Under the pieces are notes generated by a model. It did no database searches, was not told the origin of the DNA, and saw nothing but the letters and a program-made list of their open reading frames with translations. Made by a program: the position numbers and the translations under genes. A stretch of DNA of 64,000 nucleotides, taken from assembly GCA_949361645.1 (NCBI GenBank), contig OX442428.1:7166964-7230963 (forward strand), in the 5' to 3' direction. The first letter of the stretch is position 1. Every line of letters starts with the position of its first letter. The DNA comes from Spongilla lacustris. Taxonomy: Eukaryota; Porifera; Demospongiae; Spongillida; Spongillidae. Positions 37,835-64,000 of this stretch are shown here, piece after piece.

Positions 37835-39468
37835 ATGTTTCAGAAGATCTTGGCAATCCTTTTATCACAACACTTAATAATATGTAAGTTATCAAATTAT
37901 GTACATATTTCTACTGCATTTGCTTCTGAAAGTAGAAAGCTGCTTTTGGATACGGAGTTGTAGTCATTGTAACCTTTTTATTGGGGGGGGGGGGGGGGGG
38001 GGGGACCAACAAACCGGCTTTAATTTGCAGTCATATGCATTTCTCATTCTGTTACAACCATCCTGGGTGCAGCCTCTACCAGTTCTCTCCTTACCATCAA
38101 TATTAATCCAGCTGCAGTCTCAGCCAACCTAACATGCACATTTCTGGATGGACAGCCTTACTTCTGTTTGGTGTGCTGTGGTAGCGGCCTACTCTCCTAT
38201 CCCATCAAGACCCTGACTAACAGGGGTGTGGTGGTGGGTGGTACAATATATGGCCTCATGGCCAATCATGTATACTACTGCAAAGCATCAGCTTATGTCA
38301 TCACCAATGGCACATCATGTGATGGATTATATGTCAAAAATGCAAGTGTGACATTCAGTTTCAAAACCCAAGGTAGTAATGGTTGAATTATGGCCAAATA
38401 AAATATTCTAAGCTATATTTTTGAAGTGTCACATATACATAATATATATAATTTATAATAATATATGTGTATGTCATGAGTTACTATCTCATTACACCAC
38501 TTGGGGTCATTGGCTGTGTAATCCTGACACCAATGTTCAGTAATGCAATGACCTTTCTTCGCCAACGTGACCTTTCTGTATTGCAATATCAGCATAATGA
38601 CCAGGTGGCTGTAGTGCAGTCACTGTAGTGTTATTGAAAATATCTTTTCTTCCAAACATGCATATCCCGTTTTGAAGAAAAATGTTCTGATATGTTTCTG
38701 TTTGTCACAAGTATACTTAATGCATTTGATGGCATATCTTCCATTTGCTCTAGCAATAGTTTTTCAAAATTCCTCAATAATAAAAGCAATAGTTCTTCAA
38801 AATTCCTCAATAAGACAAGCTACAGTCTTGTCTCAAGATAGGAACAAAGCTGTGATCAAGTGCTTGTTCAAAAATGGCCAGTCACATTTCTGTCTTGTGT
38901 GCTGCAGTTCCAACTCCTCCCTCATAGCTGCAAATGTATCCACCTCTGCCAACACTACTGTAACTGTAGACCTGTACGGTCTGGGCACCAGGGAAGCAAC
39001 TGTCCTCTACTGCAATGCATCCGCACAAAATGTGTCACAAATGAACTGCAACCATCATGATGTGACCACTACTCAGGAAATGGCAGCAATATCAGGTATC
39101 TGGTTAGGTATGTACAATCCCATAAATATTGTATTCCTTTTCAGATCTTCAGCTAACTCTGATTTGCGCATTTGCCATCACTGTGCCACTCCTTGCTCTT
39201 GTGGTGCTGTGTATGTGCATGTGGAGGAAGCAATGTGGAAAACAAATAAATGAATATTCTGACACCATGAGCAAGTTGAGGTAGGTTACAAATGGTTGTG
39301 TCCAAGTCCTCCCCTCGCTGTATTTGAGGTGTTTGATCATTGATCTCTAGAACAAAGCTGTTGATGGCTGAAAATGCAGAAAATTTGAAGCAAGATTCCA
39401 TTGAATTGCAAAGCAACCTCTCATATGTGATAAGCAGCAACAGATCTAGAGGTGGCAATTTGTTATGA
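37835..39468 (+). CDS. Receptor gene A: signal peptide, X and Y modules, membrane helix, short tail
   Basis: Exons 37835-37883, 38118-38372 (or 38031-38372), 38754-39095, 39145-39280 and 39351-39468 join in frame, giving 299 residues (328 with the longer second exon). Exon 1 encodes a hydrophobic signal peptide (MFQKILAILLSQHL). Modules X (~17-101) and Y (~102-215) are homologous to each other; both have C.F..GQ..FCLVCC.S early, YGL, then YC.ASA. Each occupies one phase 1-1 exon. They resemble Ig/FN3-type beta sandwiches with extra cysteines, but I do not recognise a named domain. The membrane helix (about 220-242, LTLICAFAITVPLLALVVLC) precedes a tail of about 55 residues with tyrosines in NEYSDT and LSYVIS. 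It would be a plasma-membrane receptor or adhesion protein. It lacks the Ig and FN3 modules of B-D. The downstream ~500 bases are shared with D. Confidence 0.85.
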
Positions 39469-40240
39469 CCTTGAGTACTGCAACCACATGTCCTAGTATA
39501 GTGGTAGAAATGTGCTTGCAGGATATAAGCATGTTACCATTACTGTTTTATGCATTTGCACAATCGCAGTTATTGTAATAACATACACTGAAAATTTGAC
39601 AACTGAAGTAGTGTATATAGATACTTTTGAAAACCTGATGACGCATGGCCTGTTCAGTTGCTGTATACATCCTTTTGACACCACCAATAATTGGTCAACA
39701 CCCCTGGAGCATTATTGTTATACATTTACCGCACAATCACAGTATTTAATGGCAATACACTGAAATTTGAAAACACCCTATGCTGTGTGTAAGTGTATAG
39801 AACCTTTTTAGAAACACTTCTATCCTGATTTGCATGACCTGTTCAATTGCTGTATTAACCTTCAATATGGTCAACAGCTTCAGGTTCTCTTTCAATTCAA
39901 CCTCACTGCATAGCATCAAGCACTACATCCATGTGCTGACAATGTAATGAAATATGTCTCTTGAAAGTCATTAATGATTGTTTTGATTAGCACGTTGCGT
40001 ATACCGTACATATACATACATGTACTACTGACGGCCAGATTGACTAACAGCTCCAAATAGGAAAACATGCACAGAAGAGGAAAATGTTTTTAAGAATTTA
40101 ACTTCAGAAATGACATGTATGTGCAGAAATGTTTACAGGTTATAATTTTAAAATGAAATCGATTATTTTATTTACAAGAAATAATCTTGCAGTGATCAAT
40201 TCTTGTATGCTCTAAAAAAACTTCTAAAGCAATAAAAACG
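39469..40240. repeat. Shared 3' flank of type A/D receptor genes
   Basis: The block 39500-40000 recurs after D (61970-62460), after the decayed copy (50285-50420, partial) and at 52240-52500. It contains three internal repeats of 'cacaatcacagt..taatagca.acactgaaaattt' type sequence. It marks the end of an ancestral duplication unit. Confidence 0.8.
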
Positions 40241-40259
40241 CTTGATCTCGTGCACAGTT

Positions 40260-41083
40260 TCTAATAGAGCGCGCCTCCGTAATTTCAGGCCCCAAAGGGC
40301 AATTATTATTATAGGCGCAAGACCAAAAACATCAGAAGAAGACTCTGAGACCTTTGAAACAGACCTGATTGAGTGCAGAGTTCATCCCCATGTATGGGAT
40401 GTATAAGCTTTGCCTTTGACCTCATTACTGACGCACGCGTATTTAAAGAGCTCTAGCTCGATCTGGCGTACTATGCTACAAGCGCCCAAAATTTTGGATC
40501 TGAAATTAGTACGGAGACGCACTGTTTTAAAAAATAACGGGAGTGTGAACCCATTAAGAAAATTTTCTGCTGCAATCAACGTATGGGTGTATACGGTATT
40601 TTTGCCTTCTATACCTGTAGCGATTTGAGTTGATATGAAAACAGGTAAGTGCCAGGCCATTGTAGCAGCCTGAAACCGAATGCTTTGAAATTAGATAAGT
40701 ATAGCTGTTCGGCGATACAGCGATGCTAATCTTTGTACAGGCTAATGACTACATGCAGAACTGAGAATATTTTTTAACTGTACCGCGGCCAATAAGTAAT
40801 GAGCTGGAATGATAAATGTCGGCAATATTTGAGTAAACAAATGCGAGAGATCTAGATGCCCTCGTGTACGGAAACATCGTATCTATTACTGTATTAGTGT
40901 GTGCCAACTTGATTGGAATAGCGTCGACATTATTGGTTAATCAGTAGTAATATTTTTAAATTTTCACTTCGTTTGTTTATGATGAAGGTACATATATAAT
41001 ATTATGCAATGTACAATAAAACTATAATTATATTATAATTATAATTATACGCGGATAGCTTGATTACAATTTTACCACCGTAG
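40260..41083 (+). promoter_or_regulatory. Conserved 5' region of receptor gene B: promoter and 5' UTR exon
   Basis: The stretch is highly similar to 62780-63656 in front of gene E and partly to 52740-53242 in front of gene C. A TATA-like TATTTAAAG lies at 40440-40448 (TATATAAAG in E). A conserved donor (acag/gtaagt, 40645) and the acceptor (accgtag, 41083) just before AGAAGATG suggest a non-coding first exon of roughly 180 bases (about 40470-40644). This would place transcription start near 40470. Confidence 0.6.
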
Positions 41084-41088
41084 AGAAG

Positions 41089-43780
41089 ATGTTTCTGAAG
41101 ATCTTGGAAATTCTTTTATTACAACACTTATCAATCTTATGTAAGTTATCAAGTTTGTGTTCAGTGGCGATGCAGTAACGTATAGACTACAGCTGTGATA
41201 CAACAAAGCAATTAATGACAAGGGGAGAAACGGCCAGAACATTGCTACGCTTGTGTGGCGTATGTGGAGGACTACATTTGCTCACAATGATTTCACTTTT
41301 TTTAAACACGTAGCAAGCTAGCTGCCGTTCTTAATTTTTAACTATTTAAAATGCTCACGCACTTGCAGTTATATGAATCCCGTAGTGTACAGTGGAACAT
41401 CCTACCTGCATTTTAGATGACAGTTAATTAGCCACTGTAAAGTATTGCATTTATTTACATGTATATATGGTAGTTCATAGGAATACATGTAGATATTTTG
41501 TATCACGCATGCGCAGTTCAGTTGATGATCCTTTTCTCTAAGTGTGCGTTTGGGACCCACTATAACATTTTAAACAGAACATATTTACCACAACTTTCTC
41601 AAATTACCCCCATCCCAACAGGTGTGTCTGAGTACCTGGTTTGTCAGATCCCTAATGGTACCAGTTGTCCAAAGGTTGTATGTCCCAACACCACACTGAA
41701 CTTCATCTGTAACATTAAGACACAACAGCTTGGGCACACAATATGGCTGCTACCAAATAGAACATGCAGAGACAATCCTTATCCTGATAGGATCGCCCTC
41801 CTCCAACCTATATATGCTGGCTGCAATCCCAACTCATCCTGGCAACATGGTACTTGTGGACCATTTTCAGCACAGACTGTGGCCACCTCTAGATGTGTGA
41901 ACTCTTCACTGTCTGTTATTGCAACACAGCAGTTGAATGGAGCTGAAGTAAAGTGTATCAACTCTGATGGACGTAACGATTCCCCTGTTGGAAATGCAAC
42001 TATCCCTGTTGTGGGTACGTTTCACGATACATATATACATGTAAGAGTAAGCTATATATCCATTGTTTCTATCACAAAATGAAAGACTAAATACACCCAT
42101 ATTTCAAATGGGAGGCTGTATAGGGGTGGGGGGGGGGGAACCTCACACCCAAGTGCTGGGTCGTACCTTTGCTACTCCAGAGATGGAACAAGCCCAGACA
42201 TCCACATCAAACAGGTGATGAAGGTGACACCTTTCTCTCACCAGCTGCTCTGTGCTTGTGGGTATGCATATACATAGCAGCTGGTTTAACTACCTTAATC
42301 CGTACAAATAATATCAACGTACATGAAAATGAGTGAGTCTCTCGCGCATCCCATGGTATTGAGTCCATAATGGGGCTAAATCTCTTGGTATCTATTTCTG
42401 ATTGTATTCTGCTAGCTTGTAATATCTGAATTGTTTTGAAAGTTGTGATATTGAGATGTTATCCTAGCAATTGTGTTCTATTTTAATGGTGATGCTCAAA
42501 ATAATTTATCATTAATAATCATTTTCTACGATGTAGCCTCCACACCAAACATATCAGTGATGACCACTTGTACAGAGATAGAGGTTCGATGGTCTGCATC
42601 TTCTCAAGATAGGGGTGGTTTCACTATCAAGATCAGACCTCAGACCAAAAACATTTCAATCAGTAAAGGCCCAAACTTTCAGACCTTCCATAACCTGGTC
42701 AGTGACTCTTTCTACACCATAACATATGAGGTTTCTTGCACTGGAAGGAGTGAAGTTAGCATTGAGATATGGACATGTTGGTATACTTCCATAGTTTTGA
42801 AATGTAAATTAACCTCTTTATTCCACTCTAGTACCCAGGCCACCTCACAATATTAATTCTAATCATATTATGTATGACCCAAATACAACCCGTTTAGTGG
42901 TGACATGGACACCAGTGGTAAGCAGGCACCACCATCATAGTTGTATTCCAGAATGCTTAGCCCTTATTCTTTAGACAAGCAATAATGTGTCTTGCAGTAG
43001 TGGAATGCTGAAATCCAAAGTGAAGATATCGTCTGAGCATGGCCTAACCTTCACGGAATCTCTTGTCTCCTCTGACCATTGTGATGACATCATAACCAAC
43101 ACATGTTATTTTGCCTTTGACCTGCAAAGCATCAACACTTCAAACTATTTCATTTCAGTGGCCTCTATTAGTGGCTCTAGGCTTGGTCCATTCAGTGATC
43201 AAGTGAAGAGTGTTGGTAAGTGTACCACTGAGTTGGTGAGGGTTTGCTAAGGGTGTCTTCTTCATACCTTTAAAATGCAGGCAGCACTAGGGATACGCAT
43301 CTAATGGTAATGAGTTTTGTCACAAACATTTAATGACAATTGGGCCATTATTATACACATTTTTTAAAAATAGTATAATGGTATGTAAGTGGCACATAAA
43401 ATGGCAAGCAGTGATGAAAGCCATCAGTGTATTTACCATATACTTCTGTTCAGCAAAGCCAGAAGCCGGGATGACATCATTGTCACTTACAAACACAGCC
43501 ACAGGTACATTATCTTTGGACAACTTTTGAGTACCAAAGTAGCTGTGCTGTTTTTTCAACCACAATGTATTTGCTTTCATGCAATCCTTTAAAAATAATA
43601 GTTGGTGTATCAGTCTCTGTCACCTTTGTGGTGTCCTTCTCTCTTGGAGTGTTGGTGGCTTCTGTTCTCTGCTACATTTCAAGAAGGTCAAAAGAATCAT
43701 ACAAACCAAGTTCTGCACATTATAAGATTCAGAATGACATTGGGATGGAAACAAATATCTCATATTTGGTTCTACAGTAA
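41089..43780 (+). CDS. Receptor gene B: signal peptide, Ig, two FN3-like, membrane helix, ITIM-like tail
   Basis: Seven exons (41089-41140, 41622-42014, 42537-42776, 42832-42917, 42975-43215, 43454-43504, 43602-43780) join to 1242 nt, 413 residues. Order: signal peptide 1-17 (MFLKILEILLLQHLSIL). Ig-like module 18-148 with Cys (FICN), Trp (IWLLP) and the late NGAEVKC. FN3-like module 149-228 (TEIEVRW, YTITYEVSC). A second FN3-like module 229-337 over two exons (VVTWTPV, NYFISVAS). A short stalk 338-354. Helix ~357-380 (VTFVVSFSLGVLVASVL). A 33-residue tail ending ISYLVLQ. ISYLVL fits the ITIM pattern I/V/L/S-x-Y-x-x-L/V/I. Many NxS/T sites fit an extracellular, glycosylated ectodomain. The donor of exon 3 (gttggt) is weak compared with GTGAGG in C and D. 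Inhibitory signalling is inference. Confidence 0.88.
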
Positions 43781-44580
43781 TCCTACTACCTCACTAGAAA
43801 GCCGCTGTGAACGTAGTAAGCTAATACAAGTTACATTGCGTGATGATGTTCGTTAACAATTCATTAAGGCCACTGACATTATATCCTAGCTGTTTTCAAT
43901 TTGTGCCTTTATTCATATTTCTATATAACTGCTTTTGAGCACTCCGAGTCATATGATGATAATAATAACTTGTGATGAATCTGTAACAAGCAAGCTCGAC
44001 AGGATATTATGCGTGGGACTTAAGCGCTTGCCCTACATGTATGCACTACTGAGGCAGGGTATTTACCAAAGTGTACTAACAATTGGAAAAGGAGCCACAA
44101 GTCTTGAAAACGTTCCTTGGAGAACTAGTAAACCATCCAGAAGTGTTTTTGCAGAATCTACAGCTGAATCGATAATGCTTCAGTCACAAAGTCATTAAAG
44201 CAGAGATGATACATAGATATAATCTCTGATTAAAGGCAGCAACGTTCAAAGTCTATCAGTTGATGATAGCAGAGTCATACAGCAGCTAGGGGATAGGAAG
44301 CTATTGTATATATGCTGTGTTTGATTAGAGACCAGTTCAATTCCTGCATCTTTTAGAGAGCAACAATATCACAGGGCCGTAGCATCGATAAAAGAACCGG
44401 TTCGACTGTAGTGGAAATTAATATGCAGAAAGTCCCGGGGTACTGTACGGATATTCTCGTGAGCTGCCAATGTCATTCAAGCATGAGACGATTGCAGGCA
44501 TTCGATCATTTCTAATTATCATATCATTTAAAATGTTTTTGGCAAAAATCGATCCAGCCGGACTGGATGCTACGACCCTA
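43781..44580. other. 3' region of gene B, no further gene
   Basis: An 87-residue frame at 43935-44198 has no domain and no clear splice partner. It could be a lost or alternative tail exon of B but is not supported. Confidence 0.35.
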
Positions 44581-44584
44581 ATTA

Positions 44585-44685
44585 TCGTGGGATAGCGGCA
44601 TAGGCAGAGCACAATGTTGTGGGATAGCGGCATAGGCAGAGCATAGTGTTGTGGGATAGCGGCATAGGCAGAGCATAGTGTTGTG
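44585..44685. repeat. Three tandem copies of a 32-bp unit
   Basis: 'ttgtgggatagcggcatagg' plus 'cagagcatagtg' is repeated three times (about 44585, 44615 and 44647). Confidence 0.9.
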
Positions 44686-44689
44686 GACA

Positions 44690-46180
44690 TTCTAAAATTT
44701 GTTTAAAGGCAAACACACTTATGTTTTAAGCAATGGAGGCTACGTCATCACGACTAGGCCGGTAATCTTTCACTAAAGGACTTATATTGAATGTCTATGA
44801 CTTGAATCAAGCACTTAGCAGCTTCTAGTACTAGTGAAAGGATGTGGAGAGGGAATAGGTAGGGTGGTATCCGGCTTCATGGGTGTGGGAGAGGATGGTG
44901 GAGAAAGATAGGTAGTATAGGCTAAGCCACTGTTGGTAAGAATGTTATAGCAGGTTTAATTTATGGCCCAGATCTAGTTGACAGGCATTTCAAATGTGAT
45001 GGTGACTGTGGGATCTGAAACTAATGTGTTTAACAAATGATGCTAGAACTGGTCTCTTCATACAGGATGAAATGGATGTACAATTACTAATGCACAACAA
45101 AAAGTACAAGATTGTGATCTTGATCTAGAAGCCAGTGAAAGTGAACATGCAATAAATGAAGTTAGTGAGTTGATAAGTAACGGAAAGTACAAACTTACAA
45201 ACTAAATGGCAATGCATCAGCTGGCCTCGAGACAGTTTTTATCATGCGATTTATTTTGAATACCGGATCGTATCCTACATGAATTAAAATATATGACTAT
45301 GCATGCCTTAATATTCTGCCCTACTACAGTACCAGGCTGTATGCCTACACTAATAGTCAGACCATTCTCAATCTGCGCAATGGATGCCATACAGGCGCAT
45401 CTAGAATTGCAACAACCATGCTGGCATCGAACAATACACAGATAAGGACAGTGCGGTCAAATGCCTGTGGTGTATGATAAGGTGGCTGGCTGACACGACA
45501 CATTTAGCCTTCCATGCACACCCTACTACACGGTATATACACATCTATCCTTCTATAATCTTGCTCATTTAATGTAATAAGTTGTTAGATAATACAACTG
45601 ATTTCTAATTTGGCTAGCTTAAAATCTATTTGTGCTGATGTCATCACACAGCTTTACCATAATGCACCATGACCGTGAGGAACCCAATGAAGATGAACTG
45701 ATTCGCCCTGCACATAATGCCTCATCTGGACCTAGCGACACATCCTGTTCCATTGTGAGATAATTAATGTACATGTACCAGAACCAGCCGATGCTATCGC
45801 CCCAACTTAACTGTCATGCAACATGCCCCACCCTTCTACCTTCCCCTCCCCACATTTAATGAAAAAAACTTTGACATCAAATGTCCACTAGCACACTGAA
45901 ATATTGCTTGGAATTTGCGGAATACCATACACATGTGTAACTGAGGGAAGAAGCATTAAAGAATACAATAAAGACACCTACATGCATTGCTCCAGCACAC
46001 AGCTAACCTTTAAGATGGTCCGTGTATGCAGTTGGACAGATCTTGCAAAGCAAATGGACTTTCTTCTTATATAAAAAAAAATCAGTTAACACATCCATGC
46101 ATAAAACTAGTACATATACTTGTGGAGCTACAGGCAGATCAAAATGACATGGATACAATGACCAAATCTAGTAGCTTGTG
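44690..46180. other. Intergenic, nothing recognised
   Basis: I see no splice-bounded exon, RNA gene or clear repeat. Confidence 0.4.
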
Positions 46181-46189
46181 TTTATTTGC

Positions 46190-46307: not shown

Positions 46308-46338
<31 letters not shown>

Positions 46339-48739: not shown

Positions 48740-50260
48740 ATGATTTTCATAATGTAATATTGAGGCACGACAACTTGGATACTCACTATGGCTGCTACCA
48801 ATTGAAATATATAGAGGGTAGACTGGATTAATTGCCCTCTTCCACAACTATCACCTCATCAACACAAGAGCTGAAGTATAGTGTTGATACTATGGTGGAC
48901 ATAGCTATCTCCCAAGTGGGTGATGAGACAGTATCAGTTGTGGACACAAATACATAACTAAATCTATTGAAATTTCGCATCCCATGTAAACCGATACAGA
49001 TATCTTATGTCATGCTACAAGTGCAGCAAGCGATTCGAGTGCCTTCTACAAAATCAATTCAAAAGCTGCTGGAATCTTATTTCTATTTAATGGGCCGAAA
49101 TAATAGATTCTCTTAACCTGGTACATGTACTGCTGCTTTATTCATTGCTTTGATATTGATAAATCTGATTTTTAACTGAAGTGTATGTAATTGAGTGACC
49201 TGCATTAAGTGAAATTCCTCTCATGTGGACATCTTTGGGACAACCTGAGGCCCTGATTATGAAGGTGTCCATATTTAAAGGATTTCTCAGTGAATGAAAA
49301 ATGATGTCACTCAAAGAGTGTTTTGATATATAAAATGCATTCCACAATTTATGGGTATTCACTTCAATTTGTATAAATGACCCCACACTGATCAACTCCT
49401 CAACCCACACCAAACATATCAGTGATTTCCATGCACTTGTACAGAGATAGAGGTTCAATGGTCTGTGTCATCAAGCAAAGGTAACTTCACTACTGTCATG
49501 ATCAGTGTTAAAATGGGACTTCGAAGTTGAAGATGCATCCACTATCTGGAGCACAAGGCTCTCTAACATTTTATGACCTGGTCAGTGACTGGTATGAAGA
49601 TTATAACTGTGCTAGAAGGAGTGAAGTGATCATGTGATCTCTGGCACATGTACCACATACTAGAAGTTACATGGGCATGCACTAGTGGTAACCATATTTG
49701 CACATTACTACTGATTCCAACATTATAGTAACTCCTACGATCCAGAATACTACACTGACATGCTTAATGAAAGCATCTTCAGCTGAAGATTAGTTAATAG
49801 ACAATGTTGCTCTCTTCGATCACTGTACTAACACTTGTTACTTGCTATTGTCTTGGAAACTGCTAAATGATACTTTGTATATATGGCTTCCATTCCAGTT
49901 CAAGGATTTGTCCTTTCAGTGATCCAGTGGAGACTGGTAGTAAAGGTACCTTCAAACTTGCACATACCCTTTATGTCCTTTTATGCTTCAGTGGCAGTGT
50001 AATAGTTCTTTTTTTAATTCTCAATGTTTAGAGCAAAGCAATGAGTCCATATTTTCCGCATAGTTTGTTCTGGCAGTGCTACCTGTGGTATTACTAACCA
50101 TGGCTATTTGTTGTGCTAGCTTTGCACAGCATAAACTAACAAAAGCTTCAGTTGCAGACTTAAATAGAAGCAAGCAAGGTTCCATTGAATTGCAAAGCAA
50201 TACATGACAAGCAGCAACAGAGGTGGCAATTTGCTATGAGTTTGACACATTACAAATACT
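48740..50260 (+). pseudogene. Decayed receptor copy, C-type body with A/D-type end
   Basis: Fragments match receptor exons in order. An Ig remnant lies at 48770-48945 ('ctatggctgctaccaattg' and 'agctgaagtatagtgttgat'). An FN3 remnant is at about 49395-49640, followed by the second-FN3 pieces at 49635-49680 and 49745-49945. A C-type membrane exon is at 50030-50165 (gcagtgctacctgtggtatt), with a frame-disrupting start. At 50170-50240 there is a piece of the last exon of A/D (tccattgaattgcaaagcaa). Stops and indels are numerous. The junction at about 50168 joins two different 3' module types, a fossil of recombination between paralogues. Confidence 0.8.
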
Positions 50261-50284
50261 GCAACCACATATCTACCCACTATA

Positions 50285-50954: not shown

Positions 50955-52240
50955 AATAATCAATCATCTCACATCCTACATAACTCTGGTTGCAGTTGTT
51001 TCTGACACATTTTGCATCACTGGTGCCCAAACCATACCAATGTACAGTTAAAGTAGTGTTGGCAGAGGTGGATACATTTGCAGCTATGAACTGGGAGGAG
51101 TTTGAACTGCAGCACACAAGACAGAAATGTGACTGGCCATCCCAGAACAAGCACTTGATCACAGCTTTGTTCTGCCTTGAACCAAAACTGTAGCTTATAT
51201 TATTGAGGAGTTTTGAAAGAACTAGGGTAGTGTAGATAGCGACTGCCACCTGTGACAACATCAGGAGTGTTCACCACCCCTCTATTTATTCTACAGAGCA
51301 ACATTATTTGCGTAAAACTGTGTATAGTACTAACAAAGGAGCCTATTAGGGTTGTTTTTAACCTATATAGAAAGATCCAAACTTATTATTTTTGTTTTCA
51401 TACGCTATTAAAAGTGCGGGTGGCAACTACTCCATACTGGCGAACAAATGTATGTATGCCAAATAGAAACATATCGGAACATTACCTTCCAAAAACAGGA
51501 TATGCATGTCTGGATGAAAAGAAATTTTCAATAACACTACAGCCATCTGGTCACTATGCTGATATTGCAAACAGTAAGGTCACAATGGCTAAGGATTGAA
51601 AAAAAAAGGTCATTGCATTACTTTGTGCAGGAAGGGTTTAGTTACATTACACTAAACCCTTCCTGCACAATGGCATATCATACCCCTCATTACTTCCTAT
51701 ACTTTTTAAAAAAGTTTATTTTGGCTTATAATTATAGTTATTTCAATAAATCACAATGGGCATAGAAAGTAATAAACTGATGTTAACTTGCAGGCTTTGG
51801 GTTTTGAAACTGAATGTCACAGTTGTTGGTGGCATCTGGTGTGCCATTGGTGTGACATAAGCTGATGCTTTGCAGTAGTATACATGATTGGCCATGAGGC
51901 CATACATTGTACCACCCACCACCACACCCCTGTTAGTCAGGGTCTTGATGGGATAGGAGAGTAGGTCACTACCACAGCACACCAAATAGAAGTAAGGCTG
52001 TCCATCCAAAAATGTGCAGGTTAGGTTGGCTGTGACTGCAGCTGGATTAATATTGATGGTGAATAAACATGTTTCCTCACCAACATTCTTCACTTGATCA
52101 CCAACTAACTCTTGAGCTGCCATTGAGATGAAGTAGTTGGCAGTACCATTAAGTTCACCAGCATAGTAACATGTGTTGGTATTATTATTACAGTGGTCTG
52201 AGGAAACATGAACTGTTACATCTGCAGTATGATTTTTACA
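50955..52240 (-). pseudogene. Inverted receptor fragment: second FN3 part, X and Y modules
   Basis: Read on the minus strand, the order is the end of the second FN3 exon (52230-52070), module X (52060-51765), an intron-like part matching 61030-61200 (about 51600-51400), and module Y (51230-50965). It corresponds to gene D 60360-61500 turned around. In X the stretch GEETCLF runs directly into TININPAAV with the intron partly deleted, so FN3 and X are fused in one open frame (51743-52123). A key Cys of FCLVCC is changed to Tyr (FYLVCC), and Y is truncated after KCVRNNCNQ. No membrane exon follows. Confidence 0.85.
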
Positions 52241-52740: not shown

Positions 52741-53242
52741 TTATTTTTAAAAAGCTTGATCTCGGGCAGAATTATTAAATAACAAGAGTACTATTATCGA
52801 TGGATGAGACTTTCTATACCTGCAGAGTTGAGAAGAAAACTGGTAAGTTATTGTAGCGGGCTGAAACCGAATGCTTTTGTGAGATACGTTGGCCATACAG
52901 CGATGCTAATCTTTGTACAAGACAGGCTAGCCGAAAGACTAATTTTGTAATGACAATAATATCAATAACTGTACCCAATGCCGATAGTAAGGCTGTGCGT
53001 AATCAGCTGGAATGATGAGCAGTATTTTGTATCTTTAGGTACATCATCTACTATAATTTGCATACGGTGGTATGTAATGAGGTGTTACGGCGCTTATCGG
53101 CAATATTTGAAACGGTTGTAACGAAAGCCTGAAAAGAGGACGATTCTCTTGCATACATTGTGTATGAAGAATGATGTATATTAGTGAACGCTTCGGCTTC
53201 CAACATGAGCATAATAGCTTGATTGCAATTCTACCACCCTAG
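52740..53242 (+). promoter_or_regulatory. 5' region of receptor gene C (diverged copy of B/E promoter block)
   Basis: It shares the 'aaaac(t/a)ggtaagt' donor (about 52852), 'gctgaaaccgaatgctttt', 'gatacagcgatgctaatct' and the 'caattctaccacc.tagaga' acceptor with B and E. The TATA region is not clearly conserved. Confidence 0.55.
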
Positions 53243-53247
53243 AGAAG

Positions 53248-56200
53248 ATGTTTATGAAGATCTTGGCAATTCTTTTATTACAACAATTATGTAAGTTATA
53301 CAGTTATCCACCCCATTTGCTCTAGTCTCGTCCCCAGTCTGATGTCATATTTGTCCAGTGAATAAAAATGGTCATGTAATACATATTTAGTGTCAGTGCA
53401 GCAAGAGGGCAATTAGTTAATTGATTAATCAATGAACGCAACTGACATTGACAAGGGGACACATTAGCTACTTTAAAATACAAGTGGCATCATGCATGAG
53501 CAACAAAACTATGAGTGTTTTTATTAATTAATGCTCATACAAATCTAACGTACTGTGGCATGAATTTTTTAATGTGTAGTACAACTTTCTCACTTGTATT
53601 TTAAATAACAGTTAATTAGCCCCACAAATCAATGAAACATCTAATCCTCTGTGCAATATATGCGTATCATAACCTTTTCAATCTACATGTATTTACCTCA
53701 CACTCTATTTGAACAGGTGTGTCTGAGTACCTGGTTTGTCAGTTCCCTAATGGTACCAGTTGTCCAAAGGTTGTATGTCCCAACACCACACTAAACTTCA
53801 TCTGTAACATTGAGACGCAACAGCTTGGGCACACAATGTGGCTGCTACCAAATGGAACATGCAGAGGCTTACGTGACCATGATAGGATCGCCCTCCTTCA
53901 ACCTATATACATGTATGCTGGCTGCAATCCCAGCTCATCCTCGCAACGTGGTACCTGTGGACCATTTTCAGCACAGACTGTGGCCACCTCTGGATGTGTG
54001 AACTCTTCACTGTCTGTTATTGCAACACAGCAGTTGAATGGAGCTGAAGTAAAGTGTATGAACTATGATGGGCATAACTATTCCCTTGTTGGAAATGCGA
54101 CAATATTAGTTGTGGGTATGTTGAAAGCACACAAGTGTATTTTTTGCACATTTGACCAGAACACAGTAGTAAATAGATCATGTTTTGTAACTAAGCAATC
54201 TACTAAAGTGACTAAAACCAAAGCAATCTGCTCTTTTACCTTCACTTAGGCCTGCCAACGAACATTTTCATTTAAATTGTTACAGTTTCCCCAAATTCAG
54301 ACTTCTTTGTTTGTAAGTTTAGTAGCTGTACATGAAGTTCAACTCCATCAGACTTTGCAAGTGATGTGTTGCTACTGATGGGTTGCAAACTTGCTATGTT
54401 GACAGCACTAAGATACTAGTTGTATTGTTCAATACAGTAGGTGTAGTCAAGCGTATATGATATCATCATCTTTAATTTGCTGCTTTTTATTGACAGTGGA
54501 TATGCAATGAGAAAGTATTATAGCAGAATTTTATATATACATGTAATTTGGTGGCCTTTTAAAAAGCTGCATTAAATGGAATCCCTCTAATGTGGACATC
54601 AGTTTATGATGGTCAAGGTGCCCACATTTAAAGGATTTCTCAGTGAATGTAAAATTATGCCACTCAAAAGGTGTTTGATATCAAATGCATTCCACAATTT
54701 ATGGATGTCAATTAATGATTCACTTTCCACCCCACATTGATCAACTCCTCCATCCACACCAAACATATCAGTGATGTCCACCTGTACAGAGATAGAGGTT
54801 CAATGGTCTGTGTCATCAAGCAAAGGTAACCTCACTACTGTCATGATCAGTGCTAAAATGGGACTTCAAGATATTGAAGTTGCAAATGAATCGATTATCT
54901 GGAACACAGGCTCTCTAATATTTTATAATCTTATCAGTAACTCTTTCTACACCATAACATGTAAAGCTTCTAACTGTGCTGGAAGGAGTCAAGTTAGCAT
55001 TGGCATCTGGACATGTGAGGAACTATATCCTGCTTCAATTTAACATATAAATCTTTATCCAGTGCCCAGGCCACCACAGGACATTCATGCTGATCATGTG
55101 ATCTCTGGCACAAGTACCACATACCTAGAAGTGACATGGGCACCAGTGGTAAGCATGCTTGTGTATTACTATTCCAAAATTATAATGTCTTACCATCCAG
55201 AATAATACATTGACATACTTAATGAAGATATCTTCAGCTGAAGATTACATCACAGACGTTTCAGTTCTCCTGGATCACTGTTCTAACACATGTCACATTG
55301 CTATTGTCCTGACAACTGCTAACACTACGAACTACTTTGTATCTATGGCTTCTGTTAGTGGTTCAAGGATTGGTCCTTTCAGTGATCCAGTGAAGAGTGT
55401 TAGTAAAGGTACCTTCAAACTTGCACATACATGTACCCTGTATGTCCTTTTTTGCTTCAGTGGCAGTGTAATAGTTCTTTTTTTAATTCTCTATGTTTAG
55501 AGCAAAGCAAAGAGTCCATCCTTTCCCCATGGTTTGCTCTGGCAGTGCTACCTGTGGTATTACTAACCATGGCCATTTGTTGTGTTTGCTTTGCACAGCA
55601 TAAACTAACAAAAGCTTCAGTTGCAGATTCATATAGAAGCTCGGCTAACATATATTCTCCAGAGGGCGTATCAAAGAGATGTGGGTAAGTGTTATTTTTG
55701 AAAAGCTGAAAGCTTATTAATGCATTTATTTCAGCTCAGCACTTGTGACCACAACAAATGGATCTCTGCACTCATGTGTTACAATAAACAGTACCAAGGT
55801 CAGTGAAAGAACACCCATGGCACATAAAATTAACATACATGTACGTAAATTATCCTGCAGGGAGATCCAGAAGCTCCTACTGCCTGTGCTAAGGCCTTGG
55901 ACAACTCTCTTTACAAAACCAAAGCTTTTAGATAACTCACTTTATAGCACCTCCACGAAGATGTGTATAGAAGGTACCACAAATGCCAGAGGACTTGAGC
56001 AGTACAGTGAGGTTCGCAGAAGAGAAGAGACTGAACAGGTAAATTAAACTTGGTCATTTTATGTGAGCATTGTAATAGTCAGGACAGTATTGTGCACAAA
56101 TGTGGGTTGAAATATTATTATCATTATTATTATAACAATAGAAAAAAAAATTATTATTTTTATTATTATTATTTTTATTATTATTATTAAAACTGTCAAA

Positions 56201-56512
56201 TATACATGACATACGCCAAATACGAGTAATAAATGTGTTACATAGTTACAATTAGCTAAATAAATTCAGCCTGATTGCTATTATTATTATCCCTTGTGCT
56301 TCCATTTGCAACAACTCGATCAGTACTCATACCCACGAAGCAAAACAATTAGAGTGATTCCTATGGCAGCAAGTTCTGATGGATACATTGAGGTGCCCAA
56401 CATTGACTCCTGTGCAGACATTACTCCCATGGCAAACCATGGTGAAGCCAAAGACACTCCTCCCAGTGATGTGTGTGTGGAAAATGGCCATCTGGCTATC
56501 AAGGAGCTATAA
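53248..56512 (+). CDS. Receptor gene C: signal peptide, Ig, two FN3-like, membrane helix, long tail with one frame break
   Basis: Exons 53248-53290, 53717-54115, 54772-55014, 55063-55148, 55201-55402, 55501-55684, 55735-55798 and 55861-56038 plus 56324-56512. Ectodomain as in B. The first-FN3 acceptor used by D (cagCTCC) reads CAA here, so an in-phase acceptor 8 codons later (atatcag, 54771) is the likely site. The helix (WFALAVLPVVLLTMAICCVC) belongs to a different membrane module from A, B and D. The tail has LDNSLYKTK and, after a T run, LDNSLYSTS in the next frame. One surplus T in TTTT near 55930 gives a stop at 55935 (431 residues). Without it the tail would continue through EQYSEV and GYIEVPNI to 56512. 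AATAAA at 56525 supports the later end, so the break is a recent mutation or an assembly error. Confidence 0.8.
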
Positions 56513-56639: not shown

Positions 56640-56848
<209 letters not shown>

Positions 56849-56849
56849 T

Positions 56850-58730
56850 TACACGCACTTCCAGCACCAGCATCCTTTAATAAGTACACACCTTTTCTCC
56901 AATAAGAGCACACCTCCAGCAGCTGTATTCTTTAATAAAAGCACACTTCCAACAGCATATCTTCATTACTAAATGCTCCTGATCTCAATAGTATGAACCC
57001 AGCTTGACTATTCTCCAGGCCATACATGTAAAGTACTTCATCATACAAAGCACACATATTTAATCAAATTTGCCAGGGTTCATACAGCCAGATAAATTAA
57101 ATGAAACATAAACAATAGTGGAACCGACTTTTAAATGTATTTTAGACAAGACAAAAGCTTATCAAAGTCTCGGTCTGTTGTCTTGCATGACCTTATACGA
57201 CACCTTCTTGGTCACATTGCCTCGGCCATACAATGTTATAGAGAATATTTTTTTAGAAATAACAATAACAGGTTGTTGGCCTAGCCTACGTACATGTATA
57301 CCTGTATAATTATAATCATATACAATTATATTTTCTCCTAATACGGGGCGCGCGCGTCTTGCATGACGTAATTAAATCGGTTCTAATTAATATTTCTTTA
57401 TTAATTAGCAGCGGCGCGGCTTGGAAACAATCTACGAATTCATGTAGGTAAGTGTATGGAACAATGCAGGAAATGTCACATTTATAGACGAGTTTAGTTT
57501 TCTGTATTGTATTGTTTATAAGGATTGCTTTTTTTCTTCATGCGGACAATGTACTATATGTACGAGGCTTCGAAAAAGCCAGAGAAAAAATACCAACGCG
57601 AATAAAGTTTGCACGAATACAACTTGTGCTCGGACACCTACGCTAATCTACCTTCCTTTAATCCATCGCTTTCTTTGGCACAGTATTCTTGGCGCGGCAC
57701 AGACATGGTATCAGTTTTGTTTATCTCTGCCAGCAGGCAAAGAGTGGATGTTTGTACACACATCTGTACTAATATCATCAACATTCTTTTGGACCGGTAA
57801 AGAATATAATAATACTGACGCTCCCCCGTATACGTTCATAGCATGGCCTTATGGGACCATAGGTTAATAACCGTTTCGTAAGGTTATTAAATATATGGTG
57901 GGACTTGGAACACCAAAAGTTATCATGATGCCACATGCACATTTTTCCACCCATAACTGAATGCTTCTAAGGTTAATAACATACCCTTCAACTTTCATAC
58001 TCCTGTCGTGGGACTCATGTTTGGTAATTGGAACAATCTGAAGGCTAATATTAACTATTAAGGTACTATAAAATAGTGTCCCCGATCCATCGTAGCACCC
58101 AGTGACATGAGAACTGTCAGAGTGCGTACAGAATTATACACCTGAGCAGGGGGAAGAGAGTTAATACCCTATTTTAGAAATGTTACCATGAATGTTTTTC
58201 TAAAGGTCAAGCCCTATTTCCCCCGTTCTCTCCATCCCCTGGATTTTTTGGTTTGACCCTAAGATAGTTAAGTTGTTGTGATGCAGATGTATACATTGAA
58301 GAAATCCCCTCTTCAATACAAAGCATCCTATTTCTAGCTTTCATAGAAGGCTAGGATAGAGGGGTGCCTCAAGGATAGAGGGACACTCCAGCATAGAGGC
58401 AGTGTCTACATCTCTCAGGCTGTTAGCTGCTCAACATCTGCTGGTCATCTTCAGAAAAGAGTCCATTGCTTTGGCTACAAGTTCATGTGCACTGCTCCCA
58501 GCTCTTCACTTGGATAGCTGCACCTTTGAATGGCCATGTGCAATCCACATTCTTGTGTCACTACCATCTAGTTGTCCTGGCTCTAACATCATGGGCCTAG
58601 ACTGTTCCAATCATAAAATCACAATAATCCCCAAACCTCTTGGTTTTGGAATACTATCTACTGGATCATCCAATAAATTACAACTGTCCAATTTACATAC
58701 ATAATTTATAAATACATATCTAAATGATAA
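56850..58730. other. Intergenic between receptor genes C and D
   Basis: Short repeats of 'aataagagcacacctccagcag' type occur at 56860-56960 (three loose units). A GC-rich patch lies at 57345-57420. A 100-residue frame at 58402-58704 lacks any domain or splice support. No receptor exons are seen. Confidence 0.45.
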
Positions 58731-58767
58731 CTTCATCAAACACATTATGCTCTCTCACTTTCTCACA

Positions 58768-58860
58768 CTCACACACATATGCACACACCACACACACACA
58801 CAAACACACACAAACTTACACACACAAACACACACACAAACACACACACAAACACACACA

Positions 58861-58919
<59 letters not shown>

Positions 58920-58922
58920 CAG
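58768..58922. repeat. CA-rich microsatellite (CACACAAA variants)
   Basis: (CA)n with regularly spaced AAAC interruptions, ending in a pure run. Confidence 0.95.
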
Positions 58923-59070
58923 CAGCTACATGAAGCATGAGTGCCTCCAACAGAACATTTTGGTTATATACAGATGGTAAGTGTTATTGCATGTCTTTGA
59001 TCCCACGCAGAGTTATTTTTGTTTGCAAGCACACACCTATTACAATTTTACAGGCATAACATTGAAGGGA

Positions 59071-61922
59071 ATGCATCTGCCATTTTTGATACTATGTCTG
59101 TTATCCATCAAATATGTCTGTAAGTTTTACTGGCGTTTCTATAGTTTGCTGCATGTCAATGCTACTTTTCATCATCAGCTCTCCAGTTATTGATTGGGCA
59201 CTTAGATGCTGTTATGAATTAGAACGAAAATAATGTTATTGTTTCAGATCTTGTAATGAAATAAGATAATCTATTTATAAACACATACACGTGATCCATC
59301 TACATTACAGCTAATGAGGACATTAATATAATCTCATGATATTGCAAACATTGATAAATTGCATTAGCTATGGTTTTCTAATACCACAGGTGTGTCTGAG
59401 TACCTGGTTTGTCAGTTCCCTAATGGTACCAGTTGTCCAAAGGCTGTATGTCCCAACACCACACTGAACTTCATCTGTAACATTGAGACACAACAGCTTG
59501 GGCACACAATATGGCTGCTACCAAATGGAACATGCAGAGCCTTACGTGACGATGATAGGATTGGCCTCCTTCAACCTATATATGCTGGCTGCAATCCCAG
59601 CTCATCCTCTCAACATGGTACCTGTGGACCATTTTCAGCACAGACTGTGGCCACCTCTGGATGTGTGAACTCTTCACTGTCTGTTATTGCAACACAGCAG
59701 TTGAATGGAGCTGAAGTAAAGTGTATGAACTATGGTGGGCATAACTATTCCCCTGTTGGAAATGCGACAATATCAATCACAGGTTGGGTACTTGTAAATA
59801 TATAATGCTGCTAATGTCACGATGAATACCCCCCTCCCCCCACAAGCAGCTCCTCCACACAAACCAAACATGTCAGCAATGTCCAGCTGCACAGAGATAT
59901 ATGTTCAATGGTTTATGTACTTCACTGAAAGTGATATTACTACCACCACAATTATAATTTCATTGGGAGCTCAAGTCATTAGTACTGAAAACGCTAATAA
60001 TATACAATCACTTGCATTGAACTATCTGGTCAGTGACTCTCTCTACACCATAACATATGAGGCCTCTAACTGTGCTGGAAGGAGTGAAGTTAGCATTGAC
60101 ATATGGACATGTGAGGATATTTTTCTGCTGCAATTTAACATATGTAATCTCTACCTAGTGCCCAGGCCTCCACAGGACATTCATGCAAGTCATGTGATCA
60201 ATGTTACCTCAAGATCTGTACACTTAGTGGTGACTTGGACAAGTCAGGTAACTATGGGAACACTAGCACTGTCCCAACATCACATTCCCTATCCAGGTAC
60301 ATGCAGGCAATAACTGGTCATACGTACTGAACATATCATCTGGAGGTGGCCAGCCTAACAGATTGGTTCAGGTTTCCTCAGACCACTGTAATAATATTAC
60401 TAAGACATGTTACTATGCTGGTGACCTTAATGGTACTGCCAACTACTTCATCTCAATGGCTTCTGTTAGCAGCTCAAGAATTGGTCCTTTTAGTGATCCA
60501 GTGGAGAGTGTTGGTGAGGAAACATGTTTATTTAAGGAGTTGTATTGTAACCACTCATTCTGTTACAACCATAGCCTCTACCAGTTCTCTCCTCACCATC
60601 AATATTAATCCAGCTGCAGTCACAGCCAACCTAACCTGCACATTTCTGGATGGACAGCCTTACTTCTGTTTGGTGTGCTGTGGTAGTGACCTACTCTCCT
60701 ATCCCATCAAGACCCTGACTAACAGGGGTGTGGTGGTGGGTGGTACAATATATGGCCTCATGGCCAATCATGTATACTACTGCAAAGGATCAGCTTATGT
60801 CATCACCAATGGCACATCATGTGATGGATCAGATGTCACACATGCAAGTGTGGCATTCAGTTTCAAAACCCAAGGTAGTAACAGTTTATTTTATTTCAAT
60901 TAATTAATGATAGTTATCTTGGCCAAATAAATGATTCTAATCTATTTTTTGAAGTGCACATATGTATCTGTATGTCATGAGGTTTGATATCATTACACCA
61001 CTTGGGGTCATTGGCTGTGTAATCCTGACACCTACATGCAAGGTAAGTAATGCAATGACCTTTCTTAGCCATTGTGACCTTGCAATATCAGCATAATAAC
61101 CAGGTGGCTGTAGTGTTGTTGAAAATATCTTTTCTTCCAGACATGCGTATCCAGTTTTGAAGAGAAATGTTCTGATATGTTTCTGTTTGTCACGAGTATG
61201 CTTAATATACATTTGATGGCATATCATCCCTTTGTTCTAGCAATAGTTCTTCAAAACTCCTCAATAATAGAAGCTACAGTCTTTTCTCAAGACAGGAACA
61301 CAGTTGTGATCAAGTGCTTGTTCTGGGATGGCCAGTCACATTTCTGTCTTGTGTGCTGCAGTTCCAACTCCTCCCTCATAGCTGCAAATGTATCCACCTC
61401 TGCCAACACTACTGTAACTGTAGATGTGTATGGTCTGGGCACCAGTGATGCAACTGTTCTCTACTGCACTGCATCCGCACAAAATGTGTCACAAATGAAC
61501 TGCAACCATCATGATTTGACCACTGAAATGGTAGCAATATCAGGTATCTGGTTAGGTATGCACAGTCTCATAAATATTGTATTCCTTTTTCAGATCTTCA
61601 GCTAATTCTGATTTGCGCATTTGCCATCACTGTGCCACTCCTTGCTCTTGTGGTGCTGTGCATGTGCATGTGGAGGCTGCGATGTGGAAAACGAATAAAT
61701 GAATATTCTGTCACCATGAGTAAGTTGAGGTAGGTTACAAATGGGTGTGTCCAAGTCCTCCCCTCATTGTGGGACTTGAGGTGTTCGATCATTTATATAT
61801 TGATCACTAGAACAAGGCTGTTGATGGCTGAATATGCAGAAAAAGTGAAGCAAGATTCCATTGAATTGCAAAGCAACCTCTCATACGGGATAAGCAGCAA
61901 CAGAGGTAGCAATTTGCTATGA
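59071..61922 (+). CDS. Receptor gene D: signal peptide, Ig, two FN3-like, X, Y, membrane helix, tail
   Basis: Nine exons (59071-59119, 59390-59782, 59850-60110, 60159-60247, 60297-60513, 60620-60874, 61241-61543, 61594-61729, 61811-61922) join to 1815 nt, 604 residues, all with GT-AG ends and matching phases. The signal peptide (MHLPFLILCLLSIKYV) is unrelated in sequence to the MFxKIL type of A, B, C and E. Modules: Ig 17-147, FN3 148-234, FN3 235-336, X 337-421, Y 422-522, helix about 525-548 (LILICAFAITVPLLALVVLC), tail to 604 with NEYSVT and LSYGIS. The Ig exon is nearly identical to that of C, and X-Y-helix-tail to A. D therefore looks like the complete ancestral form, or a fusion of B/C-type and A-type genes. 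A 3' flank shared with A follows. Confidence 0.9.
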
Positions 61923-62640
61923 CCTTGACTGATTACAAGTACTGCAACTACATGTCCTAGTATAGGGGTAGAAATGTGCTTGTTGGATATAAGCATGTTA
62001 CCATTACTGTTACACGCATTTACACAATCACAGTTATTGTAATAACATACACTGAAAATTTGACAGCCCAAGTAGTGTATATAGATACTTTTGAAAACCT
62101 GATGACGCATGGCCTGTTCAGTTGCTGTATACATCCTTTTGACACCACCAATAATTGGTCAACACCACTGGAGCATTATTGTTATATAGTTACACAATCA
62201 CAGTATTTAATAGCATGCACTGAAATTTTGAAAACATGCTGTACTGTTCTATACTGTGTGCAAGTGCATAGAACCTTTTTAAAAGCAGTTCTATCCTGAT
62301 TTGCATGACCTGTTCAATTGCTGTATTAACCTTCAATATGGTCGACAGCTTCAGGTTCTCCTTTAATTCAACCTCACTGCATGGCATCAAGCACTACATC
62401 CATGTGCTGGCATACATGTAGTAGCTTGAAAGTGGGCGGAGTCATTAGTGATTGTTTTCATTAGCACGTTGCGTCAGTATACATATACATACATGTACTA
62501 CGGCCAGATTGACTTACTGCTCCAAATAGGAAGACATGCACAGAAGAGGAAAATGTTAACTTCAGAAATGAACATAATTTCTCATACATGTATGTGCAGA
62601 AATGTTTACAAGCTTGTGAAATCGATTTTTTTATTTACAA
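61923..62640 (+). repeat. Shared 3' flank after gene D
   Basis: Highly similar to 39469-40190 after gene A, including the AATTATTGTTATA and CTTCAGGTTCTC(C/T)TT segments. Confidence 0.85.
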
Positions 62641-62759
62641 GAAATAATCTTCAGTGATCAATCCTTGTTCATGTTAATATTGTATGCTCTAAAAAAAAAA
62701 TTCTAAAGCAATAGCTAATAAAAGAAAAAGTTTGATCTACATGTACTTTTATCGTGCAC

Positions 62760-63656
62760 AGTTTCTAACGGAGCGCGCCTCCGTAATTTCAGGCCCCAAA
62801 GGACAATTATTATTATAGGTGCAAAACCAAAAACATCAGGAGAAGACTCTGAGGCCTTTGGAACAGACCTGATTGAGCGCAGTCTGTGCTGCAGAGTTCA
62901 TCCCCATGTTTGCGATATCTTAGGATTGTATTGCTACTACTTTAGGTCGTCGACATTCCGTGTGATGACAAGTTCATTAAATGGCAGCGCTGATGGGCAA
63001 ATAAGCTTTGCCTTTGAATTTATTACTGACGCCCACGTATATAAAGAGCTCTAGCTGCATGGCGTACCGCCCACATTTTGGGCCTGAAATTAGTACGGAG
63101 ACGCTCTGTTTTAAAAAATAACGGGAGTAGTGTGAACCCATTGAAGAAAATTTTCTGCTGCAATTCTGTAGCGATTTGAGCTGATATGAAAACAGGTAAG
63201 TGTCAGGCCATTGTAGCAGCCTGAAACCGAATGCTTTGAAATTAGATAAGTATAGCTGTTCGGCGATACAGCGATGCGGCTAATCTTTGTACAGGCTAAT
63301 GACTACAGAACTGAAAATATTTTTTTAACTGTACCGCGGCCAACAAGTAATGAGCTGGAATGATAAATGTCGGCAATATTTGAGTAAACAAATGTGAGAG
63401 ATGACTAGATGCCCTCGTGTACGGAGACATCGTACCTATTACTGTATTGGTGTGTGCCAACTTGAGTGGAATAGCGTCGACATTATTGGTTAATCAGTAG
63501 TAATATTTTTAAATTTTCACTTCGTTTGTTTATGATGAAGGTACATGTATATATATATATATAATATTATGCTATGTATAATACAACTATAATTATGATT
63601 ATAATTATAATTATAATCAATGCGCGGATAGCTTGATTACAATTCTACCACCGTAG
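62760..63656 (+). promoter_or_regulatory. 5' region of receptor gene E: TATA box and 5' UTR exon
   Basis: Near-copy of 40250-41083. TATATAAAG at 63038-63046 is a good TATA box; it is followed about 150 bases later by the conserved donor acag/gtaagt (63196) and, before the coding start, by the acceptor accgtag. Between the genes an extra segment at about 62890-63000 is present only here. Confidence 0.65.
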
Positions 63657-63661
63657 AGAAG

Positions 63662-64000
63662 ATGTTTCTGAAGATCTTGGAAATTCTTTTATTGCAACAC
63701 TTATCAGTCTTATGTAAGTTATCAAGTTTGTGTCCTGTCCGGCGATTAAATAATACTGCAACGTCGAGAGGAATGCATGCAGTTACGTATAGCTGTCATA
63801 CAACAAAGCAATTAATGACAAGGGGAGAAACGACCAGAACATTGCTACGCTTGTGTGGCGTATGTGGAGGACTACATTTGCTCACAATTATTTCACTTTT
63901 TAAAACATGTAGCAAGCTAGCTGCTGTTATTAATTTAAATGCTCACGCAAAGCGCTAACTTGCAGTTATATGAATCTCGTAGTCTACAGTGGAACATCCT
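63662..64000 (+). CDS. Receptor gene E, first coding exon only (window edge)
   Basis: Exon 63662-63713 encodes the signal peptide MFLKILEILLLQHLSVL and ends in phase 1 at GTAAGT, as in gene B. The following intron (63714-64000) matches B's first intron (41141-41400) almost base for base. E is therefore a recent duplicate of the 5' part of B. The rest lies beyond the window, so which modules it carries is unknown. Confidence 0.8.

Follow-up and report, generated by a model that had tools for sequence, protein, structure and literature searches.

Here we describe an array of modular, single-pass receptor genes in the sponge Spongilla lacustris in which a single exon, encoding the outermost domain, appears to have been homogenized between genes that otherwise remain distinct. 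The array begins at position 37,835 of a 64,000-nucleotide (nt) stretch of contig OX442428.1 (positions 7,166,964 to 7,230,963 of the forward strand in assembly GCA_949361645.1), which is referred to as the window, and runs on to ~97,000; all positions are window coordinates, and values above 64,000 lie past the window end. Its genes combine an immunoglobulin (Ig)-like exon, two fibronectin type III (FN3) domains (FN3a and FN3b, the latter encoded by exons FN3b1 and FN3b2), two further modules named X and Y, a transmembrane (TM) exon, and tail exons. The comparisons presented below provide good support for a homogenization of the Ig exon across three receptor chassis, with the exchanged tract being limited to the exon and with the FN3 and TM/tail exons remaining distinct. 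We therefore favor, at a probability of about 0.6, the interpretation that this is a receptor array in which gene conversion has spread the Ig exon across chassis and which works as a recognition system.

Based on their FN3 and TM sequences, the genes were grouped into chassis b (genes B and E), c (C, G, and H), and d (D and I, with the truncated gene A). The tails of the b chassis are ITIM-like (immunoreceptor tyrosine-based inhibitory motif), while those of C and H are long and tyrosine bearing. The homogenized module lies on the plus strand at 41622 to 42014 in gene B, 53717 to 54115 in gene C, and 59390 to 59782 in gene D. An initial annotation, made from the letters of the window, had described the copies as sharing one set of exons. 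Their likeness goes beyond chance, as the cross-copy Ig exons are ~90% or more alike over 385 to 411 nt. For 16 cross-group pairs among B, E, C, G, H, D, and I, the Ig exons are 92.7% identical (89.8 to 95.4%) and the FN3b2 exons 67.0%. The 150-nt flanks of the Ig exon are only 35% and 30% identical, close to the 28% obtained for 30 random pairs (0.283; one of these pairs, at 0.986, presumably reflects repeated or overlapping sequence). Consistent with this, cross-subtype blastn tracts start 3 to 5 nt before the Ig exon and terminate close to its far border, from 11 nt short of it to 8 nt past it.

The synonymous divergence (dS) gives the same picture. Averaged over the 16 cross-group pairs, dS reaches 0.524, 0.690, and 0.854 for FN3a, FN3b1, and FN3b2, respectively, compared with 0.088 for Ig; in the five within-group pairs, the mean ranges from 0.040 to 0.073 for Ig and the three FN3 exons. 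As the within-subtype values are similar, the mutation rate is alike in the Ig and FN3 exons. When pooled, the cross-subtype dS is 0.087 for Ig (95% interval by codon bootstrap, 0.050 to 0.133) versus 0.648 for FN3 (0.51 to 0.83), and none of 5,000 codon bootstraps reversed this order. Phylogenies point in the same direction. In an Ig tree, the seven Spongilla genes and three proteins from Ephydatia muelleri, with the half-length E. muelleri protein P0002 left out, are split by species with support values of 100/100, and the split is retained at 91/92 when P0002 and two distant outgroups are added. In the FN3b tree, Spongilla D and I group with E. muelleri P0002 and P0001c (support, 96/94), and none of 200 bootstraps united the Spongilla sequences in one clade. 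Within the Ig exon itself, 130 of the 378 pairs formed by 28 informative sites are incompatible, and in a test similar to the pairwise homoplasy index, neighboring sites were more compatible than shuffled ones (P values of 0.007, 0.006, and 0.021 in three windows); these site patterns indicate recombination.

Exchange involving other modules was also seen. Gene D is a mosaic with an I-like 5' part up to X and an A-like part after X, which places its putative recombination point in or near X. The Y exons of D and I are 93% alike, with 150-nt flanks, one of which contains the TM exon, at 56% and 72% (windowed Fisher test, p of 5e-11); thus, Y apparently has also been homogenized, across three genes, on fewer data than are available for Ig. 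Gene G, which has an open frame of 1,209 nt, carries a c-type ectodomain and TM with an A/D-type tail end, consistent with one tail end having moved onto another chassis. The general module shuffling put forward in the initial annotation is therefore real but narrower than claimed: the Ig exon and apparently Y, on three genes, are homogenized, and the FN3 and TM/tail exons are not.

The different domain orders, which had been read as recombined exons, are better explained by losses and fusions from an ancestor with the order Ig-FN3-FN3-X-Y. Six further loci (L035 to L040) were fetched for comparison of the domain order. Two of these, L035 and L036, are located at 7.56 and 7.72 Mb of the contig that carries the array, ~0.3 to 0.5 Mb from it, and show matches in the order Ig, FN3a, FN3b, X, Y; L037 to L039 have Ig, FN3a, and one X/Y-type domain, and L040 (2.5 kb) has Ig and FN3a. 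Since the paralogues L035 and L036 share the full order, D probably retains the ancestral arrangement, with A, B, and C being derived and B and C having no X-Y. Across the genome, the Ig, X, and Y queries match at least 64, 56, and 58 places, respectively; the X and Y lists overlap because the two modules are homologous to each other, which corrects the initial annotation. Seven Ig exons are at least 84% identical to that of D and all of them are located in the array, while the other 57 of the 64 listed places are at most 40% identical. Exons of the Ig/X or X type also occur in tandem on C15 (6.55 to 6.57 Mb) and C3 (7.884 to 7.899 Mb), making this array one among several in the genome.

We propose that an ancestral gene encoding a signal peptide, an Ig-like domain, two FN3 domains, X, Y, a TM segment, and a tail gave rise to the three chassis b, c, and d as it was duplicated in tandem, underwent unequal crossing-over, and had exons lost or fused. 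Homologous gene conversion would then homogenize the Ig-like exon between chassis, and since the introns on either side have ceased to match, it would act within the exon only. In effect, a single evolving recognition domain would be carried by receptors whose signaling tails differ, as in the paired receptors of vertebrates, and the array would act as a recognition system, for non-self, self, or a symbiont, rather than as a set of fixed adhesion molecules. Among single readings, recognition best accounts for an outer domain that is exchanged and sits on different tails, yet we infer this role, as we do the immune or allorecognition use put forward in the initial annotation. The divergence of B and E would fit such a role: the nonsynonymous divergence (dN) of Ig is 0.086, above the intron divergence of 0.040 (p of 0.005), while dN is 0.005 for FN3b2 and 0 for the TM exon, TM_B. 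In this pair, the Ig exon changes fast, perhaps through selection or through import by conversion, where the rest is nearly frozen.

A number of observations weigh against the proposed exchange and recognition role. In the approximately unbiased (AU) test, the case against a single Spongilla FN3b clade is borderline (p-AU of 0.047), and a c-type Ig clade across the two species was not rejected (p of 0.129). For a 54-residue Ig stretch of E. muelleri, the d-type sequence is 72 to 76% identical to those of its own species and 67 to 72% identical to those of Spongilla, with no clear concerted pattern. Gene A is without any Ig domain. Of the Spongilla tails scanned for the ITIM pattern, those of A, B, C (in its read-through form), and D, only that of B matches, and no charged residue, and hence no mark of an activating partner, was seen within the TM segments when read by eye. 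The excess of Ig dN over intron divergence was not found in the other four close pairs (D-I, p of 0.34; C-H, 0.61; G-H, 0.67; C-G, 0.14), and FN3a of G-H also exceeds its introns (p of 0.006), so that the fast Ig exon of B-E is not unique. Per-module dN/dS analysis, which had been suggested at the outset, yielded no ratio significantly above 1 for Ig (B-E, p of 0.067; pooled nonsynonymous-to-synonymous counts of three close pairs, p of 0.12). Hypervariable loops were considered as well, as residues 45 to 59 and 110 to 121 look variable, but scan statistics did not support them (P of 0.23 to 0.40).

In light of these points, an ordinary birth-and-death array of structural or adhesion receptors, in which conversion follows passively from local homology and which has no part in recognition, is a possible though clearly less likely explanation. 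It would account for the two dead copies, the three inverted fragments, and the decay of gene C, as well as for the lack of a significant dN/dS above 1 and of loop clustering in Ig; tandem and segmental duplications are frequent in the genome of the related sponge E. muelleri (PMC7385117), and FN3-bearing exons are very numerous here (1,305 first-look candidates, of which 150 were scored). What it leaves unexplained is that homogenization strikes the exon for the outermost domain over all three chassis and not the stem exons, and that amino acid change in the Ig domain of B-E exceeds the intron level while TM and FN3b2 hardly change. Two other explanations can be weighed against the same data. 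Strong purifying selection alone, without any exchange, would agree with the finding that the alike stretch corresponds in extent to the exon plus its splice signals, but synonymous sites are equally alike, with cross-subtype dS values of 0.054 to 0.129 for Ig versus 0.38 to 1.26 for FN3 in the same gene pairs; as recent duplicates also show the same dS for Ig as for other modules and the Spongilla Ig exons group by species, we regard this explanation as highly improbable.

An assembly duplication, with a second haplotype left uncollapsed in part of the array, is also very unlikely. Such an error deserves consideration in that the blocks at ~40.4 to 60.9 kb and 63.0 to 95.8 kb match each other in pieces at ~83 to 98%, and 160 haplotypic duplications were taken out when this assembly was curated (PMC12141999). 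However, the sequence is gap free from 35,117 to 114,000, the second block additionally contains G and another inverted fragment, the first intron of E in this block is much longer, and the 3' part is present in a third copy shared by A and D. Moreover, as a single block contains B, C, and D, the homogenization of their Ig exons would not be accounted for. The spread of the Ig exon by conversion within a true tandem array thus remains our preferred interpretation.

To map the array, exon peptides were searched by tblastn against the window together with the 10 kb preceding it and the 50 kb that follow. It contains eight gene-like units (A, B, C, D, E, G, H, and I), two dead copies, and three inverted fragments, in the order A, B, dead copy 1, inverted fragment, C, D, E, followed by dead copy 2, inverted fragment, G, third inverted fragment, H, and I, so that the window end falls inside it. 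No Ns are present from 35,117 to 114,000, and the array is therefore not a scaffold join. The initial annotation had described a cluster of five genes, A to E; these are present, with A to D, the first exon of E, dead copy 1, and the first inverted fragment at the places claimed, but the array continues well beyond them and only the first exon of E lies within the window. Each of the six modeled proteins (A, B, D, E, G, and H) has a single hydrophobic stretch at its N terminus and a single one for the TM segment, counting overlapping windows as one, in agreement with the single-pass topology first suggested. The anatomy of the array as modular, single-pass surface receptors made by tandem duplication is thus well supported.

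Gene A (37835 to 39468; genes A to E are on the plus strand) consists of a B-type signal exon (37835 to 37883) fused to D-type X (38073 or 38118 to 38372), Y (38754 to 39095), TM (TM_A, 39145 to 39280), and tail (39351 to 39468) exons. Gene B (41089 to 43780) has a signal exon (41089 to 41140), its Ig exon, FN3a (42537 to 42776), FN3b (42832 to 42917 and 42975 to 43215), a linker (43454 to 43504), and a joint TM_B and tail exon (43602 to 43780). Gene D (59071 to 61922) starts with a different signal exon (59071 to 59119) and continues after its Ig exon with FN3a (59850 to 60110), FN3b (60159 to 60247 and 60297 to 60513), X (60575 or 60620 to 60874), Y (61241 to 61543), TM_A (61594 to 61729), and tail (61811 to 61922). 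Gene E starts at 63662 with its signal exon (63662 to 63713) and extends past the window from the Ig exon (66774 to 67166) through TM_B (68779 to 68957); it is B type and open, with B's tail ending. Spliced lengths are 1,242 nt for B and E, 1,209 nt for G, 1,599 nt for H, 945 or 900 nt for A, and 1,860 or 1,815 nt for D, all divisible by three and with a terminal stop. The previously reported joins of 900 (A), 1,242 (B), and 1,815 (D) nt were reproduced, those of A and D requiring the second of two in-frame X acceptors that lie 45 nt apart. GT and AG are present at the junctions of A, B, and D, and the claim of frame-neutral modules holds: Ig, FN3a, X, and Y are in phase 1-1, and the second FN3 is split as 1-0/0-1. 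Gene I was modeled by rule as far as its FN3b exons, and its X, Y, and TM matches are open; at 96723 to 97300 its TM exon is diverged and its tail is unlike that of D. We also noticed a shared element just 5' of the start codon (agcttgatt.caatt..accacc.tagagaag) upstream of B, C, E, G, and H, i.e., in the b and c chassis (for example, at 41050 to 41088 in B, 53210 to 53247 in C, and 63622 to 63661 in E); D and I have another first exon.

Gene C (53248 to 56512) comprises a signal exon (53248 to 53290), its Ig exon, FN3a up to 55014, FN3b (55063 to 55148 and 55201 to 55402), TM_C (55501 to 55684), and tail exons to 56512. It does not fully bear out its first description as an Ig-FN3-FN3 receptor. 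Where G and H have CAG as the FN3a acceptor, C has CAA, and with the tail intron needed by H (AAG|GTCAGT ... CTGCAG|GG), C runs into a frameshift and a stop, while H is open to the same end. Since the ancestral acceptor is lost and the tail is frameshifted relative to H, gene C is probably decaying; an in-frame AG lies at 54771, further inside FN3a, and C could also be a shortened receptor. A first model of C (1,407 nt, with a read-through tail exon and FN3a skipped) was dropped after the comparison with H. Dead copy 1 (48753 to 50171, plus strand) retains remnants of Ig, FN3a, FN3b, and TM_C, with a stop in the TM exon by tblastn, and the inverted fragment at 50962 to 52213 (minus strand) holds Y, X, and FN3b2 from a D-type gene. 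Beyond the window lie dead copy 2 (76,624 to 78,991, by tblastn), the inverted fragment after it (79,688 to 80,831), and the third inverted fragment (86,027 to 87,291) between G and H.

The Ig label of the N-terminal exon is motif based and is offered tentatively. Pfam returned no Ig model up to an E value of 1 in 9 members, nor in a set of 14 (8 of the 9 are in both), and the best match in a profile search of the Protein Data Bank (PDB) was CEACAM1, at a nonsignificant E value of 0.82. The exon does show the pattern C - W - L.V...NG..V.C, with the tryptophan, at the C-strand position, conserved in 28 of 28 paralogues. The cysteine pair, at the B- and F-strand positions, is complete in 15 of these, absent in 13, and never single; many of the 28 are close relatives, and the 13 without cysteines look closely related, so that their losses may be one event. 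These 13 are L046 to L051, L053, L054, L056, L058 to L060, and L037, and eight of them are on C10. An AlphaFold model of E. muelleri P0003 (16 aligned rows) was too poor, with a mean predicted local distance difference test (pLDDT) score of 38.5, and a Foldseek search with it was disregarded.

In the case of FN3a, a profile matched the FN3 of Dscam with an E value of 3.2e-14, identifying it as an FN3 domain. The Pfam fn3 model scored above its cutoff in E. muelleri P0003 and P0004 and below the cutoff of 25 bits in Spongilla D and B (19.3 and 21.1 bits); no match was found in the C model with FN3a skipped. FN3b reaches the fn3 model weakly in Spongilla D, and its profile alone had no PDB match at an E value of 0.1. 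A cytokine receptor reading, raised by an IFNGR1_D2 match in E. muelleri P0007 (30 bits versus a cutoff of 28), was set aside, as FN3b has no PDB match and the score probably reflects generic FN3 likeness. In 12 X/Y sequences scanned, Pfam hit fn3 in 1 (E value of 0.021), Pur_ac_phosph_N in 4 (best E value, 0.019), and PPC in 5 (best E value, 0.0007); the best PDB match was a nanobody V domain (E value of 0.0057), and hhalign against FN3a gave a probability of 1%. X/Y is a cysteine-rich domain, for which the FN3-like or V-like hints are at most weak; an AlphaFold model of the X exon (6 rows; pLDDT of 44.6) was too poor to use. With regard to the tails, that of B ends in NISYLVLQ, in which ISYLVL fits the ITIM pattern. 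When T is allowed at the first position, E. muelleri P0006 (TSYVSV at its end) and L038 (VVYDEV) have ITIM-like motifs as well. A receptor kinase was discounted, as the tails of A, B, D, E, G, and H stop soon after the TM exon, although no search with a kinase profile was made.

Upstream of the array, the regions at 13846 to 20267 and 23510 to 28835 apparently are tandem duplicates of a two-gene unit, with a plus-strand gene containing a ubiquitin-like domain (Pfam E value of 2.2e-6 in the first copy) and a minus-strand gene for a multipass-looking membrane protein with no Pfam match. A long tandem repeat at 29700 to 30440 is open in several frames (ALHCT and VQCSA repeats), and its open reading frames (ORFs) are probably not genes. 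Reverse transcriptase-like ORF fragments are present at 32342 to 34384 on the minus strand (RVT_1 E value of 7.3e-6; 26.3 bits, below the cutoff of 29.6), and similar-looking ORFs occur at the L035 paralogue locus (3600 to 5000).

The nearest proteins found come from the freshwater sponge E. muelleri, to which, by name, all seven matches belong. Em0005g534a, g556a, g558a, and g559a and EMCRGX_G015480, G015481, and G015483 have the same domains in the same order, which again speaks for more than a chance likeness. They have neighboring gene numbers, c-type and d-type chassis can be recognized among them, and P0003/P0004 share with the C/H-type tails a tyrosine-bearing stretch that is 40% identical over 37 to 40 residues. 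P0002 differs in joining d-type FN3 and X to a B-type TM, in what is apparently an automatic gene model; the E. muelleri models in general look automatic and partly fused, and those named by NCBI are hypothetical proteins. A limited literature search found no publication on this cluster, from which we do not claim its absence from print. Among the Ig and FN3 modules of animals, phase 1-1 is generally the rule (PMC8001218). The symmetrical phase 1 modules of the sponge array are shared with such proteins, whereas the exchange in the sponge is recent and affects only certain modules.

When sponges meet, they may fuse or reject each other, and we know of no receptor that has been tied to this behavior. 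In the cnidarian Hydractinia, exons have been exchanged between functional and dead alr2 copies. The Hydractinia allorecognition complex holds the Alr family, with 41 Ig superfamily genes (PMC11999971). Like the Alr genes, those of the sponge are clustered, here in tandem, and encode single-pass receptors whose outer domain is Ig type, in the sponge by motif alone; they belong to another phylum and have an FN3-FN3-X-Y stem, and the likeness is one of description, not of comparison with Alr sequences. That the array is, or is part of, a sponge histocompatibility or allorecognition locus, with a polymorphic Ig-type exon that conversion both homogenizes and reshuffles on inhibitory and noninhibitory chassis, seems to us rather improbable. 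In the paired receptors of vertebrates (SIRP, PILR, LILR, and KIR), nearly identical ligand-binding domains are placed on different tails. The sponge array resembles them in that the Ig exon is alike over the b, c, and d chassis while the tails differ, with only the Ig part of the ectodomain being shared; it differs in having no activating TM charge (by eye) and an ITIM-like motif only in B and E among A to E. Matched so far only in spongillid sponges, the array is a concrete candidate for sponge recognition, which can be tested by resequencing. Selective homogenization of a recognition exon is familiar from vertebrate and cnidarian systems, and if our interpretation is correct, it would also occur in one of the earliest animal branches.

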